This document shows positions 8,529 through 14,043 of a stretch of 64,000 nt of DNA, piece after piece. The translations under genes and the position numbers were made by a program. Source of the stretch: Halobaculum rubrum (GTDB lineage: Archaea; Halobacteriota; Halobacteria; Halobacteriales; Haloferacaceae); contig NZ_CP082284.1 in assembly GCF_019880225.1 (NCBI RefSeq), positions 1,550,001 through 1,614,000 of the forward strand, written 5' to 3'. The notes beneath the pieces were generated by a model, which worked only from the letters and a program-made list of their open reading frames with translations, was not told where the DNA came from and did not search any database. Position 1 is the first letter of the stretch. The number at the start of each line of letters is the position of its first letter.

Positions 8529-8987
8529 ATGTTCGAATCGGGACCGACCGTCGCCGATCACGTCGACCCCGTCGACGACGACCAGATCCAGCCGAACGGC
8601 GTCGACTTGACGGTTGCCGCGCTGTACGACCAAGCGGAAGCCGGGCGGATCACACGCGACGGGAAGCACGTCGGCGACCGGCGGGAGATCGACCCCGAGG
8701 ACGGCCTGTACCGACTCGACCCCGGAACATACGTCCTGCAGTACGGCGAGCGCCTGCGGATTCCGGACGACCACGTCGGCTTCGTCTACCCGCGGTCGAC
8801 GCTGCTTCGCAACTCCTGCATGCTGAACACCGCAGTGTGGGACGCCGGGTACGAGGGTCGCGGTGAGGGGCTCCTCCAGGTCGGCCACCGGATCGAGATC
8901 GAACCCGGCGCCCGCGTCGCGCAGTTCGTCCTCGCGGCCGCCGACCACGAGGGTCACTACGACGGCATGTACCACGGGGAGGGATAG
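8529..8987 (+). CDS. dut: dUTP diphosphatase / dCTP deaminase family protein
   Basis: A 152-residue trimeric dUTPase-fold protein. It should act on dUTP (or dCTP) to keep uracil out of DNA. Motifs: GVDLTVAAL near residue 24, YPRSTLLRNS (PRSS-like phosphate loop), VWDAGYEGRGEGLLQVG (the DxGYxG uracil-binding hairpin), and the region ARVAQFVL. The DAGYEG form is closer to archaeal dUTPases than to classical dCTP deaminases, but sequence alone does not separate the two. A TATA-like GGCTTTTCGG at about 8497-8506 sits 27 nt before the ATG. Confidence 0.88.
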   Translation: MFESGPTVADHVDPVDDDQIQPNGVDLTVAALYDQAEAGRITRDGKHVGDRREIDPEDGLYRLDPGTYVLQYGERLRIPDDHVGFVYPRSTLLRNSCMLNTAVWDAGYEGRGEGLLQVGHRIEIEPGARVAQFVLAAADHEGHYDGMYHGEG

Positions 8988-9046
8988 GCCCCGGCGCCCC
9001 GGACTCCCCCGAGTCGTTCACTGCTTACCTGATGTTCTCAGGAATA

Positions 9047-9114
9047 GCGGGCTGGAAGGGATTCGAACCACGTCGCCGGCTCGCCCCGCTCGCCGTCGTC
9101 TACTTCGAATTCCT
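9047..9114 (-). repeat. Palindromic 3'-end repeat, tRNA-Lys copy 1 (distal)
   Basis: On the minus strand the unit runs from GAATTCGAA through GTAGACGACGGCGAGCGGGGC and GGCGTGGTTCG to a degenerate copy of the T-arm and acceptor 3' strand of the tRNA-Lys gene. The bases 9047-9069 match 9305-9327 of the true tRNA with one or two changes. The core GAAGTAGACGA ... GGCGTGGTTC is shared with the units at 9177, 13630 and 12348. Confidence 0.75.
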
Positions 9115-9176
9115 CGGACGCGGTCTGCTCGGCGGAGACGACTCGCTCCGCTCGTCGTCTCGGGCGCCTCACAAGA

Positions 9177-9246
9177 ACGGGCTGGGAGGGATCCGAACCA
9201 CGCCGCCGGCTCGCTCCGCTCGCCGTCGTCTACTTCGAATCCCTCG
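9177..9246 (-). repeat. Palindromic 3'-end repeat, tRNA-Lys copy 2 (proximal)
   Basis: This is the second unit, about 130 nt from copy 1 and 130 nt from the true tRNA 3' end. On the minus strand it has GGGATTCGAA, GTAGACGA, AGCGGAGCGAG, GGCGTGG and TTCGGATCCC followed by TCCCAGCCCG, the tRNA-Lys acceptor 3' strand. The arms GGGATTCGAA and TTCGGATCCC are almost perfectly complementary, so the unit folds into one long hairpin. Confidence 0.78.
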
Positions 9247-9305
9247 GACGCCGTTCGTGCGCCGCGGCTCCTCTCTTCGCTCGTCGCCGGTGCGGCGCAC
9301 AGAAG

Positions 9306-9413
9306 CGGGCTGGGAGGGATTCGAACCCCCGACCGTCCGGTGTCTTCCCCGCACGCACGCGCCGTCCGAACGGGTTAAAAGCCGGACGCTCTCCCTAACT
9401 GAGCTACCAGCCC
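9306..9413 (-). tRNA. tRNA-Lys (anticodon UUU) with a 34-nt intron
   Basis: The acceptor GGGCTGG pairs with CCAGCCC; the D arm GCTC/GAGC, the T arm with TTCGAAT and the anticodon stem TCCGG/CCGGA are all present. The anticodon loop is CTTTTAA with anticodon TTT at 9377-9379. The 3' half of the anticodon stem appears only after about 34 extra bases (9342-9375), inserted right after position 37, the canonical site for archaeal introns. Inside the intron CCCG and CGGG can form the short helix of a bulge-helix-bulge splice site. Without the intron the tRNA is 74 nt; CCA is not encoded. The exact splice points could shift by one base. Confidence 0.88.
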
Positions 9414-9524
9414 TCACCCGGTCTTACTGTCGTGCGCGCATAAGCGTTTACGAATGGCGACACCGACGGCGACCCGACCGCCGCCACCCACACGCCCTTG
9501 CCACCGGCGGTCGATCGACACCGC

Positions 9525-10835
9525 ATGACCGTTCCGGCCCTGCGGGACCTCACGACCCGGCTGTGCTCGTTCGAGACGACCGACGGCAACGAGGCGGCCG
9601 CCGCCGAGTGGCTCCGAGACCGCCTCGCGGACGCCGGCCTCGAGACGTACACGTGGGAAGCCGACCCCGAGCGACTCGCCGAGCACCCCTCGTTCCCGGA
9701 CGACCCCGCGGACATCGACGCCGCGGGCCGCCCGAGCGTCGCGGGCGTCCTCGAGTTCGGCGACCCGGACGCCGGCCGAACGCTCGTGCTCAACGGCCAC
9801 CTCGACGTGGTGCCAGCGGACGACGACCTCTGGACGAGCGACCCGTTCGACCCCGTGTGGGGCGAGGCCGGGGACGGCGCGGAAACGCTCACCTGCCGCG
9901 GCGCCGCCGACATGAAAGCCGCCGTCGCCGCCTGCGTCCACGCCGCCGTCGACCTCCGGGAGGGGGTCGAGTCCGGCGATCTCGATCTCGACGGTCGGGT
10001 CGTCGTCGAGGCGGTCGCCGGGGAGGAGGAAGGCGGTATCGGCGCGGCCGCGGCAGCGCTCGACTCGCCGTACCCGTTCGACCGCGACGCCGCCCTCGTC
10101 GCGGAGCCGACGGAGCTCCGCGCCGTCACCGCGACGGAGGGAACCGTCATGAAGCGCCTTCGGATCGCGGGCCGGAGCGCCCACGCCGCGACGCGGTGGA
10201 ACGGCGTCGACACGCTCCCGCTGTTCGAGACGATCAGGCGGGCGTTCATGAAACTTGAAACCGAGCGGTGCGAGCGCGTCACCCATCCGCTGTACGAGTC
10301 GTTCGACGTGCCGTGGCCGATCGTCTGCGGCCGGGTCGAGGCGGGGTCGTGGGCGTCGACCGTGCCGGGAACGCTGACCGCCGAGTGGCGGATCGGGGTC
10401 GCACCCGGCGAGACGGTCGACGAGGTGGAGGCGGAGTTCGAGGCCCGACTCGCCGAGGTGGTCGCGGACGACGAGTGGCTCTCCGAGCACCCGCCCGAGT
10501 TCGACCGCTTCTCGATCATGTTCGAGCCCGCCGAGATCGGCGCCGACGAGCCCGTCGTCCGGTCGTTGCAGGCGGCGATGACCGACGCCGGTGTGTCCGA
10601 CACCGCTCCCGCGGGGGCGACGTACGGCGCGGACAACCGACACTACATCGCCGCCGGGGTTCCGACGGTCGTGTTCGGCCCCGGGAGCATCGACCAGGCC
10701 CACTTCCCCGACGAGACGATCCGCTGGCCGGAGGTGGAGACGGCCCGAAACGTGATCCGCGACACCGCCGAGCGGTTCCTCGGCGGCAACGATAGCGACG
10801 GCACTGACCACAGTAACGGAACGAACGGGCGATAA
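9525..10835 (+). CDS. M20 family metallopeptidase (ArgE/DapE type)
   Basis: A 436-residue zinc hydrolase that cleaves an amide bond in small N-acyl amino acids or peptides. Dinuclear-zinc motifs: NGHLDVVPADD (first His and bridging region), RGAADMKAAVAA (bridging Asp), GEEEGGIGA (catalytic Glu), and near the end YGADNRHYIAAGVPTVVFGPG with the last His. The middle lid domain (IAGRSAHAATRWNGVDT) is present. The substrate (N-acetylornithine, succinyl-diaminopimelate or other) cannot be told. ATG 9525 is preferred to an in-frame upstream start because it begins the MTVPALRDLTTRLCSFET helix. Confidence 0.88.
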   Translation: MTVPALRDLTTRLCSFETTDGNEAAAAEWLRDRLADAGLETYTWEADPERLAEHPSFPDDPADIDAAGRPSVAGVLEFGDPDAGRTLVLNGHLDVVPADDDLWTSDPFDPVWGEAGDGAETLTCRGAADMKAAVAACVHAAVDLREGVESGDLDLDGRVVVEAVAGEEEGGIGAAAAALDSPYPFDRDAALVAEPTELRAVTATEGTVMKRLRIAGRSAHAATRWNGVDTLPLFETIRRAFMKLETERCERVTHPLYESFDVPWPIVCGRVEAGSWASTVPGTLTAEWRIGVAPGETVDEVEAEFEARLAEVVADDEWLSEHPPEFDRFSIMFEPAEIGADEPVVRSLQAAMTDAGVSDTAPAGATYGADNRHYIAAGVPTVVFGPGSIDQAHFPDETIRWPEVETARNVIRDTAERFLGGNDSDGTDHSNGTNGR

Positions 10836-10873
10836 AGCGACATTGTACGACAGCTCGGACGTCCCGGGGAGAC

Positions 10874-11569
10874 TCAGAGATCTCGGTACTCGTCGAGCGC
10901 GTCGGCGATCACGTCGCCCGGGTCCCGGTTCTCCAGCGACGCGCGGTCCCGGAGCCACCGATAGACATCGGGTGGCAGGTCGGCTCTGAGCTCGCCGGGG
11001 CTGCCGCCCTCGGCTCGGAGGGCCGCTTCCGGGGAGTCGCCGTCGTTGATCGCGCTGGCCGCGCGGCGCACCTCGCGGACGGTGAGGTCCGCATCGAGCA
11101 CGGCCCACGCGAGGTCGAAGCGCGCGTCGCCGGCGACGCGCGCGATGTGCTTGGCGGCAGTCGGCGCGATGTGCCCGCGGGCGACGTGCCGGCGGACCGA
11201 CTCGGGGAGGTCGTGCACGCGCGCCCACTTGCGGATGAACGACACCTGGACGCCGTCGCCGGCGGCCTCGGCGGCCGTCTTGTACGATCCGTGTCCGCGA
11301 ACGAGCGCGGCGCAGGCGGCCGCCCCGCGCAACATAACGACGTTGTCGTCGCCGGCGACGGCCTCGCTGGCGAACCGTCGGACGGTGTCGGCCGCCCGCT
11401 CGAGGCTCTCGGGGTCGCCGGGATCGAAGCGTGCGGCCCGTTCGGCGCGCTCGCCGGTGACGGCCGGATCGCCGCGGACGACGGGCTCGCCGATCTCCGC
11501 CTCGCGGTCGGCGCGACGGCGCCGCTCGCCGTTGCCGTCGTGGCCGTCTCCGGGCCGCTCGTGACTCAT
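10874..11569 (-). CDS. ParB-type helix-turn-helix protein, haloarchaeal
   Basis: A 231-residue protein without a recognised name. Residues 90-160 resemble the HTH and adjoining helices of ParB/KorB: KTAAEAAG ... SFIRKWARVHDLPESVRRHV, then ARGHIAPTAAKHIARV, which follows the ParB pattern of an exit region with conserved Ala and His. The C-terminal 30 residues (PPDVYRWLRDRASLENRDPGDVIADALDEY) look like a short ribbon-helix-helix-type segment. The first 40 residues are charged filler. There is no ParA or Walker protein next to it, so a chromosomal DNA-binding role is inferred, not shown. Confidence 0.7.
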   Translation of the reverse strand: MSHERPGDGHDGNGERRRRADREAEIGEPVVRGDPAVTGERAERAARFDPGDPESLERAADTVRRFASEAVAGDDNVVMLRGAAACAALVRGHGSYKTAAEAAGDGVQVSFIRKWARVHDLPESVRRHVARGHIAPTAAKHIARVAGDARFDLAWAVLDADLTVREVRRAASAINDGDSPEAALRAEGGSPGELRADLPPDVYRWLRDRASLENRDPGDVIADALDEYRDL

Positions 11570-11718
11570 CGTCCATTCGTGGGCTCTACCGCCTCAAAAG
11601 GGTCCCGGGGGTGGCTGTCCCTGCCGTCATCTGTGACGCCGAACGGGAGTCGACCACCCGGCGTCTCGTGGCCTCGATACATCGACGCCGCTTTGCCCGG
11701 GCCGCTCCGAGCGCGGGT

Positions 11719-12348
11719 ATGCTCCGCTACGTCACGACGAACCCGGGAAAGGTCCGCGAGGCCCGCGAGTACCTCGGCGACGAGGTGTCACAACTCGACT
11801 TCGACTACACCGAGATCCAAGCACCCGATCTCGCGCCCATCGCCGCCCACGGCGCCCGCGAGGCGTACCGCCACGCCGGCGAGCCCGTCCTCGTCGACGA
11901 CGCCGGGCTGTTCGTCCGCGGATTCGACGGCTTTCCCGGCCCGTACTCCGCGTACGTCGAAGACACGATCGGCGTCGAGGCCGTCCGACGGCTCGTCGAC
12001 GCCGAGCTCGACGACCGTCGCGCCGAGTTCCGCTGTGTGCTCGCGTACTGCGACGGCGAGCAGTTCGACGCCAGCCCCGACCCTGTCGACCGCGACGAGC
12101 GCGTCGTCGCGGCCGCAACCGGGGCCGAGCGCGGCGACGAGGAGACGGAGCCGCTTCCGGTGAAGCTGTTCGAGGGCGTCGTCCGCGGCGAGATCGTCGA
12201 GGCGCGCGGCGACGGCGGCTTCGGCTACGACCCGATCTTCGCGTACGACGGATCGACGCTCGCCGAGATGGACGCCGCCGAGAAGAACGCGATCTCCCAT
12301 CGCGGGCGGGCGTTGGAGAAGTTCGGGGAGTGGTTCCAGGAACGGTAG
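11719..12348 (+). CDS. XTP/dITP diphosphatase (HAM1/RdgB/ITPA family)
   Basis: A 209-residue house-cleaning enzyme that hydrolyses dITP, ITP and XTP to monophosphates. The family signatures are intact: TTNPGKVREAREYL at the start, DDAGLFVRGFDGFPGPYSA (catalytic Asp pair), GDGGFGYDPIF and EKNAISHRGRALEKF. An 18-residue acidic insert (about 128-147) is haloarchaeal. ATG 11719 begins the first beta strand; 36 upstream in-frame codons lack family similarity. The last codons form one arm of an inverted repeat whose loop holds the stop codon. Confidence 0.92.
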   Translation: MLRYVTTNPGKVREAREYLGDEVSQLDFDYTEIQAPDLAPIAAHGAREAYRHAGEPVLVDDAGLFVRGFDGFPGPYSAYVEDTIGVEAVRRLVDAELDDRRAEFRCVLAYCDGEQFDASPDPVDRDERVVAAATGAERGDEETEPLPVKLFEGVVRGEIVEARGDGGFGYDPIFAYDGSTLAEMDAAEKNAISHRGRALEKFGEWFQER

Positions 12349-12398
12349 TTCCTGGAAGTAGACGAGACCCGAGCGAAGCGAGGATCTCGGCGTGGTTC
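12334..12398 (+). repeat. Palindromic 3'-end repeat at the end of the HAM1 gene
   Basis: TTCCAGGAAC (12334-12343, last sense codons of the gene) and GTTCCTGGAA (12348-12357) form a perfect 10-bp stem with the loop GGTA that leads into the stop codon. Directly joined are GAAGTAGACGAG (12355-12366), AGCGAAGCGAG (12372-12382) and CTCGGCGTGGTTC (12386-12398). These three blocks occur, same order and spacing within a few bases, next to tRNA-Gly and tRNA-Lys. Confidence 0.75.
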
Positions 12399-12501
12399 GC
12401 TGAGCGATAGCGAGGCAAACTACGGAGGACAAGCGAGCGAAGCGACACGGATCCGTGCCGTGAACGCCGACGCTAAGCCGTCGCCGTCGCAACGCGAGCG
12501 C

Positions 12502-13224
12502 ATGTCCCGCGCGGTCGCCATCAACGTCGCCGCCAACACGAACCTCCCGGGTCGCTGCGGGCCGGTGTACCCGGACGGCTCGTTCGTGTACGTCCCGATC
12601 CCCGATCGCGAGCCGACGGCCGAACCGGTCCCTACCTACGAGGACCTCGACCTCGCGGCGTACGTTCCCGACGACGCGGTCGATCTGCCCGTTCATGTCG
12701 ATCCGGAGTTCGCGGGCGCGCTCGGCCGCGAGTCGTACACCTACGGCGACCCGCACGGCGTCAAAGCCGGTCCGATCTCGGGACTGGAACCAGGGGACTC
12801 TCTGTTGTTCTACGCGACGTTGACCGTCCACGGGGACGAGCACGACCGAGCCGAGTGGCTCCCGCCGGAGTGGGGCTGTTTCCTGATCGGGGAGTTCCGG
12901 GTCGCGGAGGTCCTCACCGGCGACGAGTATCGGGAGGGCAACGCCGCGACCCGGGACCGGTTCGCCTCGAACGCCCACGCTCGACGGGAGTCGTTCGACG
13001 CGGCCGTGCTCGTCCGCGGCGATCCCGAGGGCTCGCGGCTGTTCGACCGCGCGGTCCCGCTGTCGACCCCCGCCGGCGGCACCGACGCGAACCGGCTGGT
13101 CACCGAGCTCTCGAACGACTCCGGGAAGGGACCGTGGTGGCGGCGCGTCCTCCGCTACGACGCCGACGCGACCGCGACGCTGCGCGAGCGGATCGACGCG
13201 GACCCGGCCGACTGGCCGGCGTGA
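12502..13224 (+). CDS. Nmad3-like nucleotide modification-associated protein
   Basis: A 240-residue soluble protein. The N-terminus NVAANTNLPGRCGPVYPDGSFVYVPIPD has the pattern I recall for nucleotide modification associated domain 3 (Nmad3), a family found near DNA base-modification systems in phages and bacteria. Haloarchaea carry a chromosomal version with no modification genes nearby, as here. Other landmarks are LEPGDSLLFYATL, PEWGCFLIGEFRVAEVL and a C-terminal GPWWRRVLRYD. The function is not established. ATG 12502 was chosen; 14 upstream in-frame codons are atypical. Confidence 0.72.
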   Translation: MSRAVAINVAANTNLPGRCGPVYPDGSFVYVPIPDREPTAEPVPTYEDLDLAAYVPDDAVDLPVHVDPEFAGALGRESYTYGDPHGVKAGPISGLEPGDSLLFYATLTVHGDEHDRAEWLPPEWGCFLIGEFRVAEVLTGDEYREGNAATRDRFASNAHARRESFDAAVLVRGDPEGSRLFDRAVPLSTPAGGTDANRLVTELSNDSGKGPWWRRVLRYDADATATLRERIDADPADWPA

Positions 13225-13264
13225 CCCGAGACGGTTGTTCCGGCCGGCCCGCTGACGACGATCG

Positions 13265-13525
13265 CTACCCGATCACGCTGTGGTGGTAGGCCCACCCCCA
13301 CACGAAGGTGAGGACGACGAGGAGGCCCACGGCAGCCACGCCCGCCACCGTGTCCGTCGCGCTCGTTACGCCGACGCGGTCGACGAGCTGGACTCCCGCC
13401 GTGCTGGCGTACGCCACGAGGTCGCGCGTGCTCACGAAGTGCTTCAGGACGTCCTTCAGGTACGAGGCGGACACCATCGCCGCCAGCGCGGCGATCGCGT
13501 GCGAGACTCCGGTTCGGTGGGGCAT
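13265..13525 (-). CDS. Small two-helix membrane protein, unknown
   Basis: An 86-residue protein with a moderately hydrophobic helix at 8-25 (HAIAALAAMVSASYLKDVL) and a clear transmembrane helix at about 58-80 (DTVAGVAAVGLLVVLTFVWGWAYHH). I do not recognise the family. It sits alone between the convergent Nmad3-like gene and the tRNA-Gly repeat region. A protein of this type and length is common in haloarchaea and the reading frame is free of rare patterns, so I consider it real but weakly supported. Confidence 0.6.
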   Translation of the reverse strand: MPHRTGVSHAIAALAAMVSASYLKDVLKHFVSTRDLVAYASTAGVQLVDRVGVTSATDTVAGVAAVGLLVVLTFVWGWAYHHSVIG

Positions 13526-13629
13526 ACGTCGCTGTGGTCACGTCGGGGTGATATAGGTTGCCGCCGGTGAAGGGGGTGCTCGGCGTCGCGTCCGGCGACG
13601 GCGTGGCCGTTTCGTTCGAGCCTCGGAAG

Positions 13630-13705
13630 AATGCGCCGTCCGGGAATTGAACCACGCCGAGACGTGCTCGCTTCGCTGTGTGCGACTCGTCTACTTCAAT
13701 TCCCG
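13630..13705 (-). repeat. Palindromic 3'-end repeat with second copy of the tRNA-Gly 3' end
   Basis: The 24 bases 13630-13653 repeat 13737-13760, the tRNA-Gly 3' strand of T arm and acceptor plus two flanking bases, without a mismatch; distance 107 nt. The arm CGGGAATTGAA (13641-13651) is complementary to TTCAATTCCCG (13695-13705). Between them, on the minus strand, lie GTAGACGAG, AGCGAAGCGAG and TCTCGGCGTGG, the same core as at 12355-12398 and 9047-9246. Confidence 0.8.
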
Positions 13706-13738
13706 TCGGCGATTTCGCCTCGCTTCGCTCGGCAGAAA

Positions 13739-13809
13739 TGCGCCGTCCGGGAATTGAACCCGGGCTATTAGCTTGGGAAGCTAATGTCCTACCACTGGAC
13801 CAACGGCGC
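13739..13809 (-). tRNA. tRNA-Gly (anticodon CCC)
   Basis: A 71-nt cloverleaf without intron: acceptor GCGCCGT/ACGGCGC, D arm with GTCC/GGAC, anticodon stem TTAGC/GCTAA around TTCCCAA (anticodon CCC), and T arm CCGGG/CCCGG around TTCAATT. It is encoded on the minus strand and followed downstream by a repeat unit that duplicates its 3' end. Confidence 0.93.
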
Positions 13810-14043
13810 GCTCGTTCGTTTCACTCACTCGCGCCCCGAGGCTCGCGATTCCTCCGGAATCGCTCACCAACGGCGCTCGTCTGCTCGGGATCTCCGACCG
13901 GCGGGGCGCTCGTGTGTATTACGCCCTTTCCCATCGCAACACTTCAACTAATCGGTCGCCGGCGTCGCCGCGGAACTGGACGCGCGTCCACGATCCGTGG
14001 TCACGAGGGAACTATTTGTTCGACGGCGACCTACCCGGAGCCG

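Follow-up and report, generated by a model that had tools for sequence, protein, structure and literature searches.

Introduction

Archaeal integrative elements that target tRNA genes insert at the tRNA 3' end; the gene is restored, and its end is present as direct repeats afterwards (PMC8371274). In Haloquadratum, the MITEs carry fixed terminal repeats related to known transposons, and the PATEs and small mobile repeats are reported to insert without target duplication (PMC3119063). In Haloferax volcanii, hairpins have been found upstream of some termination sites, one being reporter-confirmed (PMC7237163).

In this study, we analysed a 64,000-nucleotide stretch of haloarchaeal DNA (the window), in which an earlier note had described four palindromic units behind gene ends, with three blocks in fixed order and outer arms matching the neighbouring gene. 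We found that they belong to a large family of short DNA hairpin units in haloarchaea that had so far gone unrecognised, and the family is well supported. A full-text search of the open-access literature gave no description of such units.

Results

Four units in the window

All four units were present where they had been described (Table 1), the fourth with GACGTGG instead of GGCGTGG. The exact three-block pattern occurred three times in the 3.06-Mb genome (G000), each time in the window, and the reversed pattern used as a control did not occur. As the earlier note had claimed, the arms differed from copy to copy and agreed with the neighbouring gene, with TTCAATTCCCG for tRNA-Gly, TTCGAATCCCTC for tRNA-Lys and TTCCAGGAA for HAM1. 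The right arm indeed matches the gene, but it is more than an arm, namely a full direct copy of the 3' end (20/20 nt for tRNA-Gly). The HAM1 arms were also taken from the gene, but the left arm pairs with the upstream gene end and not with the right flank. The direct duplication of gene ends, the tandem arrays, the other core classes and the position of HAM1 as an exception among tRNA hosts had been absent from that description.

The model R1 was built from family units including these four, which therefore match it by construction, at 13637-13708 (-), 9183-9247 (-), 9053-9117 (-) and 12344-12410 (+) with E values from 1.6e-21 to 8.9e-13; the next-best match in the window had an E value of 0.07. 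When positions 8900-13900 of the window were searched against Rfam 15, only the host tRNAs reached the gathering score, and the other hits were weak chance matches.

Table 1. Genes and unit parts in the window (position 1 is its first letter)
Feature	Position	Strand	Remarks
HAM1-family gene (XTP/dITP pyrophosphatase family)	11719..12348	+	Pfam Ham1p_like E 1.1e-46; the last codons, GTTCCAGGAACGGTAG, serve as left copy of unit C
Unit C, inverted copy TTCCTGGAA of HAM1 end TTCCAGGAA	12349..12357	+	
Unit C, class I core GTAGACGAGACC...GGCGTGG	12358..12394	+	
Displaced HAM1 3' end GTGGTTCGCTGAGCGATAG	12391..12409	+	ending of the unit-free relative G006
tRNA-Gly(CCC), host of unit A	13739..13809	-	left copy is the 3' end, 13739-13758 (TTCAATTCCCGGACGGCGCA)
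Unit A, spacer, 34 nt	13705..13738	-	
Unit A, inverted copy of the T-arm 3' strand (GGGAATTGAA)	13695..13704	-	
Unit A, class I core GTAGACGAGTCG...CGTCTCGGCGTGG	13652..13694	-	
Unit A, right direct copy of tRNA-Gly 3' end	13632..13651	-	20/20 identical
tRNA-Lys(TTT), apparently intron-containing	9306..9413	-	3' end (9306-9325) serves as left copy of unit B1; gene detected by Rfam, missed by ARAGORN
Unit B1, inverted arm CCGAGGGATTCGAA	9234..9247	-	
Unit B1, class I core	9198..9233	-	
Unit B1, right copy of tRNA-Lys 3' end	9178..9197	-	1 mismatch; doubles as left copy of unit B2
Unit B2, inverted arm CCGAGGAATTCGAA	9104..9117	-	
Unit B2, class I core	9068..9103	-	variant GACGTGG
Unit B2, right copy of tRNA-Lys 3' end	9048..9067	-	

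Common plan of the units

Along the tRNA strand, a unit starts with the gene 3' end, which is followed by a spacer (about 20-140 bases) and by the inverse of the first 10-15 bases of this end; next come a constant core and a second direct copy of the 3' end. The left copy is the tRNA's own last 20 bases counted from T54 (TTCRAAT...), and the two junctions of tRNA-hosted units fall at G53|T54 of the T-arm in every core class. The class I core runs GTAGAC, stem, variable loop, stem, GGCGTGG. The units are noncoding, measure about 80-220 bp, which is too short for an integrase gene, and are always oriented with the tRNA strand.

The claim that the core is tied to gene ends and not scattered at random was borne out. 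Among 100 distinct model matches, 59 had an exact 20-nt copy of the right arm within 400 bp upstream (control, 0/99), and 91 had a copy with at most six mismatches (control, 6/99). Several of the matches lacking an upstream copy were HAM1 loci or decayed. The DNA folding z-scores were -4.8, -3.5 and -1.8 for the three tRNA units of the window and -0.2 for the HAM1 unit. Pairing in the core stem was kept via paired changes, with 41 such cells compared to 11.7 in shuffles for the whole structure, and these changes were confirmed in 86 de-duplicated units.

Several known structures were compared with the units and rejected. By hand, the internal loops did not fit the 3-4-3 geometry of a bulge-helix-bulge tRNA intron, and the tandem G-A pairs of a kink-turn were absent. 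A casposon was dismissed since the units carry no gene at all. Inverse copying that extends to the trailer was also considered, and it did not differ from the control.

The right copies of the tRNA end often had an extra T-loop base, with TTCA(C/T)AATC in place of TTCAAATC. It was seen at L034, L024, L217, L401 (the tRNA-Val of G006), L348 and the Thr loci of G006 and G009, and spans several families and tRNAs, a recently gained unit included. It may be left over from insertion or may disable the T-loop.

Relation of the arms to the host tRNA

The 13 bases before the core motif matched the inverse of their own tRNA end at 8.39 positions on average, compared with 7.22 (sd 0.11, maximum 7.61 in 5,000 draws) when the ends of other tRNAs of the same genome were reassigned. 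The arms are not identical between copies, and they match their own tRNA better than others of the genome, as had been proposed. The own tRNA end was the best or tied-best match at 28 of the 59 clear sites. Because T-arms resemble each other, this specificity is statistical and not absolute, and some inverted arms showed only partial complementarity to the local tRNA.

Where the left and right copies differ, the inverted arm agreed with the left copy at 16 positions, with the right copy at one and with neither at one (18 positions, five loci with a register-shifting indel in the right copy being left out). The raw count, with register shifts included, was 21 left, 15 right and 2 neither. The inverted arm therefore preserves the sequence of the tRNA and does not stay complementary to the right copy. 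This would be expected of an arm that was copied a single time and whose sequence does not depend on pairing with the right copy.

Distribution across genomes

A covariance model built from 29 units gave 11 matches in G000. The earlier note had suggested searching other haloarchaeal genomes, and with this model at least one match at E <= 0.01 was found in 50 of 60 relatives, the largest number in one genome being 25. When 120 genomes from across the phylum were sampled, 17 had a match, all in the same order; among the genomes listed, 17 of 19 haloarchaea and none of the 101 others matched, where sampling was one genome per species and the sensitivity of the covariance model may fall in low-GC genomes.

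The chromosomal tRNA loci of three related genomes were also surveyed. A downstream copy of the own tRNA end was present at 16/43 loci in G000, 23/43 in G006 and 21/43 in G009, a few of these copies being weak. About 40-50% of the tRNA loci in these genomes were occupied, with up to three units in tandem. In G024, at least four units stood behind tRNA-Gly(GCC) (L216), with near-identical spacers and different core classes. On plasmids, one class I-like unit was found, behind a tRNA-Val-like gene on the 828-kb megaplasmid of Natronorubrum bangense (L250); this gene was absent from the gene table used, which was incomplete. Scans of viral contigs and phage records gave no convincing unit, and a viral or phage origin was rejected since the matches were chance coding matches only.

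Core classes and their probable movement between genes

Further core classes were found, namely class II (CAGGGAG...CGACCGNGG), class III (CCCTGCAAG...CTTGCTCYGG) and class IV, with the types CACGGAAG... and TCGAACAG... Classes I-IV follow an identical plan of arms and copies, and several classes can share one tRNA in tandem. Class II spans at least six families of haloarchaea. One of its cores, 39 bp long, stood in identical form behind tRNA-Val in G123 and tRNA-Lys in G135, as the tRNAs were read from sequence; the two genomes belong to different families, and the arms differ. Because the same non-tRNA core of about 40 bp is found on many unrelated tRNAs, the sequence must travel from locus to locus.

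Nearest cores were compared for 74 class I units that had neighbours both on a different tRNA within their own family and on their own tRNA in a different family; the former held the nearest core in 55 and the latter in 14. This comparison backs movement between genes and is supportive only, as the numbers of candidates were unbalanced between the two kinds. Orthologous cores of G006 and G009 diverged by about 4.3% (34/783), and alignable sequence downstream of unit-free tRNAs by about 5.4%. Since the cores drift at nearly the flank rate, slow host-level conservation is a poor reason for identity over long range, and spread is a better one. Stem pairs that are kept in cores drifting near the flank rate are as expected if copies are tested at propagation and not by host need.

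Gain and loss at orthologous sites

G006 and G009 are close relatives, with HAM1 97.9% identical. Among their 41 orthologous tRNA loci, 21 were occupied in at least one of the two, and the number of units differed at 14 of these 21. Empty sites had exactly one copy of the tRNA end. The unit behind tRNA-Val in G006 (2,944,277) was absent in all ten other congeners (1/11 occupied), and the same site in G009, G005 and G003 was cleanly empty with the same trailer, CTTYTGNCCCTNTCACGAATCG. The G006 unit is therefore a lineage-specific gain, the one case that could be polarised, and its nearest core (about 90%) is on a different tRNA-Val gene in G000. Many other differences between close relatives could be losses alone.

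At another G006 locus (L237, C1:1503000-1504500), the sequence upstream of the 3' half of tRNA-Gly becomes foreign at the anticodon arm, which looks like the result of a separate integration that split the gene and left the downstream unit in place.

The HAM1 unit and the HAM1 C-terminus

HAM1 is an exception, a protein-coding host among hosts that are otherwise tRNA genes. The order of its unit was GTGG|TTCCAGGAACGGTAG, the inverse TTCCTGGAA, the core and GTGG|TTCGCTGAGCGATAG. The last stretch is the HAM1 ending of G006, which has no unit at that locus. The right flank is thus a diverged HAM1 ending that reads W-F-A-E-R-stop, compared with the actual W-F-Q-E-R-stop.

Endings were recovered via the in-frame NAISHRG motif in 7 of 11 orthologous loci. 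In these seven congeneric genomes, the HAM1 tail carried one, two or three endings in the orders a, b-a or a-b-a, and the C-terminus was WFAER, WFQER or WYQERSD, set by whichever copy of the ending stands first. Array recombination (window 12330-12410; HAM1 orthologues L188-L197) alters the HAM1 C-terminus between congeners. At L189-L192, core-less hairpins were formed by the gene end and post-stop sequence (GTGGTTCGC...GCGAACCAC), and both sides of these hairpins had changed between some relatives.

Discussion

A possible mechanism

The best explanation is that the units are mobile, non-autonomous hairpin modules. On insertion, the end of the target gene would be duplicated and inverted, and recombination between direct repeats would remove the modules again. 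We give this reading an even chance. With slightly less confidence than that, we suggest that they are coding-free modules confined to haloarchaea, inserted at the T-arm boundary with arms copied from the target in both orientations, such that one core may colonise any tRNA harmlessly, and that they represent a new kind of mobile DNA.

The anatomy of the units, their host specificity, the target-matched arms, the occupied and empty sites, the single lineage-specific gain and the cores shared by different tRNAs are observed. The mechanism, which could about equally well be right or wrong, would be as follows. Insertion would occur at a fixed point of a gene 3' end, either G53|T54 of a tRNA or the look-alike GTGG|TTC that ends HAM1. 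The gene would stay complete, its 3' end and part of the trailer would be duplicated as direct repeats, and the first 10-15 bases of the gene end would in addition be copied in inverse orientation next to the core. A dedicated recombinase or nuclease supplied in trans would recognise the hairpin core. The core may join a nick at T54 and fold back, and the recessed 3' end would be filled in with the attached target strand as template; such fill-in would give a perfect inverted arm at birth for any gene. Established units would accumulate in tandem, and recombination between the direct repeats would remove them. Tyrosine integrases are candidate enzymes because they target the same sites.

The earlier note had suggested an element that copies target sequence as it inserts, and both the empty and filled sites and the presence of the same core on different tRNAs fit this possibility. 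Neither an enzyme nor an autonomous partner or circular form was found, and no coding cargo was seen. These negative results count against a mobile nature, as do the lack of convincing units in viral contigs and phages, the arms with only partial complementarity, the recurrent extra base of the right copies and the many differences that losses could explain.

Other explanations

The constant orientation on the tRNA strand, folding better than that of shuffled sequence and the concerted changes of core stem pairs could also reflect a structured RNA or terminator useful to the host, located in the 3' region of the tRNA transcript, where it would stop transcription, protect the end or aid 3' processing and would become tandem by ordinary duplication. 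The hairpins near termination sites of Haloferax volcanii provide a precedent (PMC7237163). We regard this role as rather unlikely, because less than all tRNA loci (about 40-50%) are occupied, units are freely gained and lost at orthologous loci, the cores drift near the flank rate, and mutations in the right copy are not compensated in the inverted arm. Furthermore, a terminator does not need a copy of the tRNA 3' end, and the wobble asymmetry is weak (core stems, G-T 19 vs. A-C 4, driven by one position; arms, 24 vs. 29).

Integration by tRNA-targeted tyrosine-integrase elements is typically marked by direct repeats of tRNA 3' ends (PMC8371274), and the units could be scars or miniature derivatives of such elements, with the repeats as attL and attR and the core as a remnant of an attP arm. 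Elements bearing integrases do adjoin two unit-bearing loci, L217 and L247, where integrase genes with phage-integrase SAM-like N-terminal domains lie next to tRNA-end copies near the units; these tRNA ends are integration hot spots as well. However, both elements end in a gene copy upstream of the unit and not in the core, no full-length element was seen with a core beside its att site, and the core was in no viral contig. The inverted arm is re-tailored for each tRNA, which no att model explains, and we therefore consider such an origin unlikely. Replication accidents, that is, fold-back template switching and slippage at tRNA hairpins in the absence of dedicated mobility, would explain how arrays grow and shrink, and serial template switching can make inverted and direct copies of one end. 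They appear quite improbable as the sole cause, since a non-tRNA core of about 40 bp stands on many unrelated tRNAs, with 39 bp identical between families, and the present data already favour cores derived from other units and not from each host locus.

If the units are mobile modules as proposed, a process that copies gene ends would reshape a large share of the tRNA loci in one archaeal order by a new mechanism of mobile DNA. It would be a further source of duplicated tRNA ends, at present interpreted as scars of integration, and, at HAM1, a route for swapping the C-terminus of a protein. Close relatives carry both occupied and empty alleles, which makes the mechanism open to direct test.

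Comparison with known systems

The units resemble integrase elements of the SNJ2, pT26-2 and SSV types in the tRNA 3'-end target, the restored gene and the flanking direct repeats, which were exact in 59 and within six mismatches in 91 of the 100 matches. They differ from them in their size of about 80-220 bp, which leaves no room for an encoded integrase, in being noncoding, and in the constant hairpin core and inverted target copy. None of the four units of the window matched a known RNA family in Rfam 15.

Integron attC sites have the consensus core site GTTRRRY and inverse RYYYAAC. The units share with them a hairpin site, paired arms, a variable terminal loop, head-to-tail arrays and the G|TT junction. 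However, the junction of the units is GTTCRA (GTTCAAA, GTTCGAA or GTTCAAT) and not GTTRRRY, their arms vary with the host tRNA, and cassette genes are absent. No integron integrase scored above the TIGR02249 cut-off in any of 40 relatives.

REP and BIME elements are similar as short noncoding palindromes with GTAG at the 5' foot of the hairpin and with mismatches. A GTAG-type foot was found in class I, whose cores mostly begin with GTAG, and was lacking in the other classes. In contrast to REP and BIME elements, the units are bound to tRNA 3' ends, are flanked by direct copies of the gene end and take their arms from the host gene. The PATEs, MITEs and small mobile repeats of Haloquadratum are likewise short, noncoding, palindromic mobile elements of haloarchaea (PMC3119063). 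Unlike PATEs and small mobile repeats, the units duplicate the gene end; and unlike MITEs, with their fixed repeats and short duplications, they have arms that depend on the host and a duplication made up of the gene end and a variable trailer.
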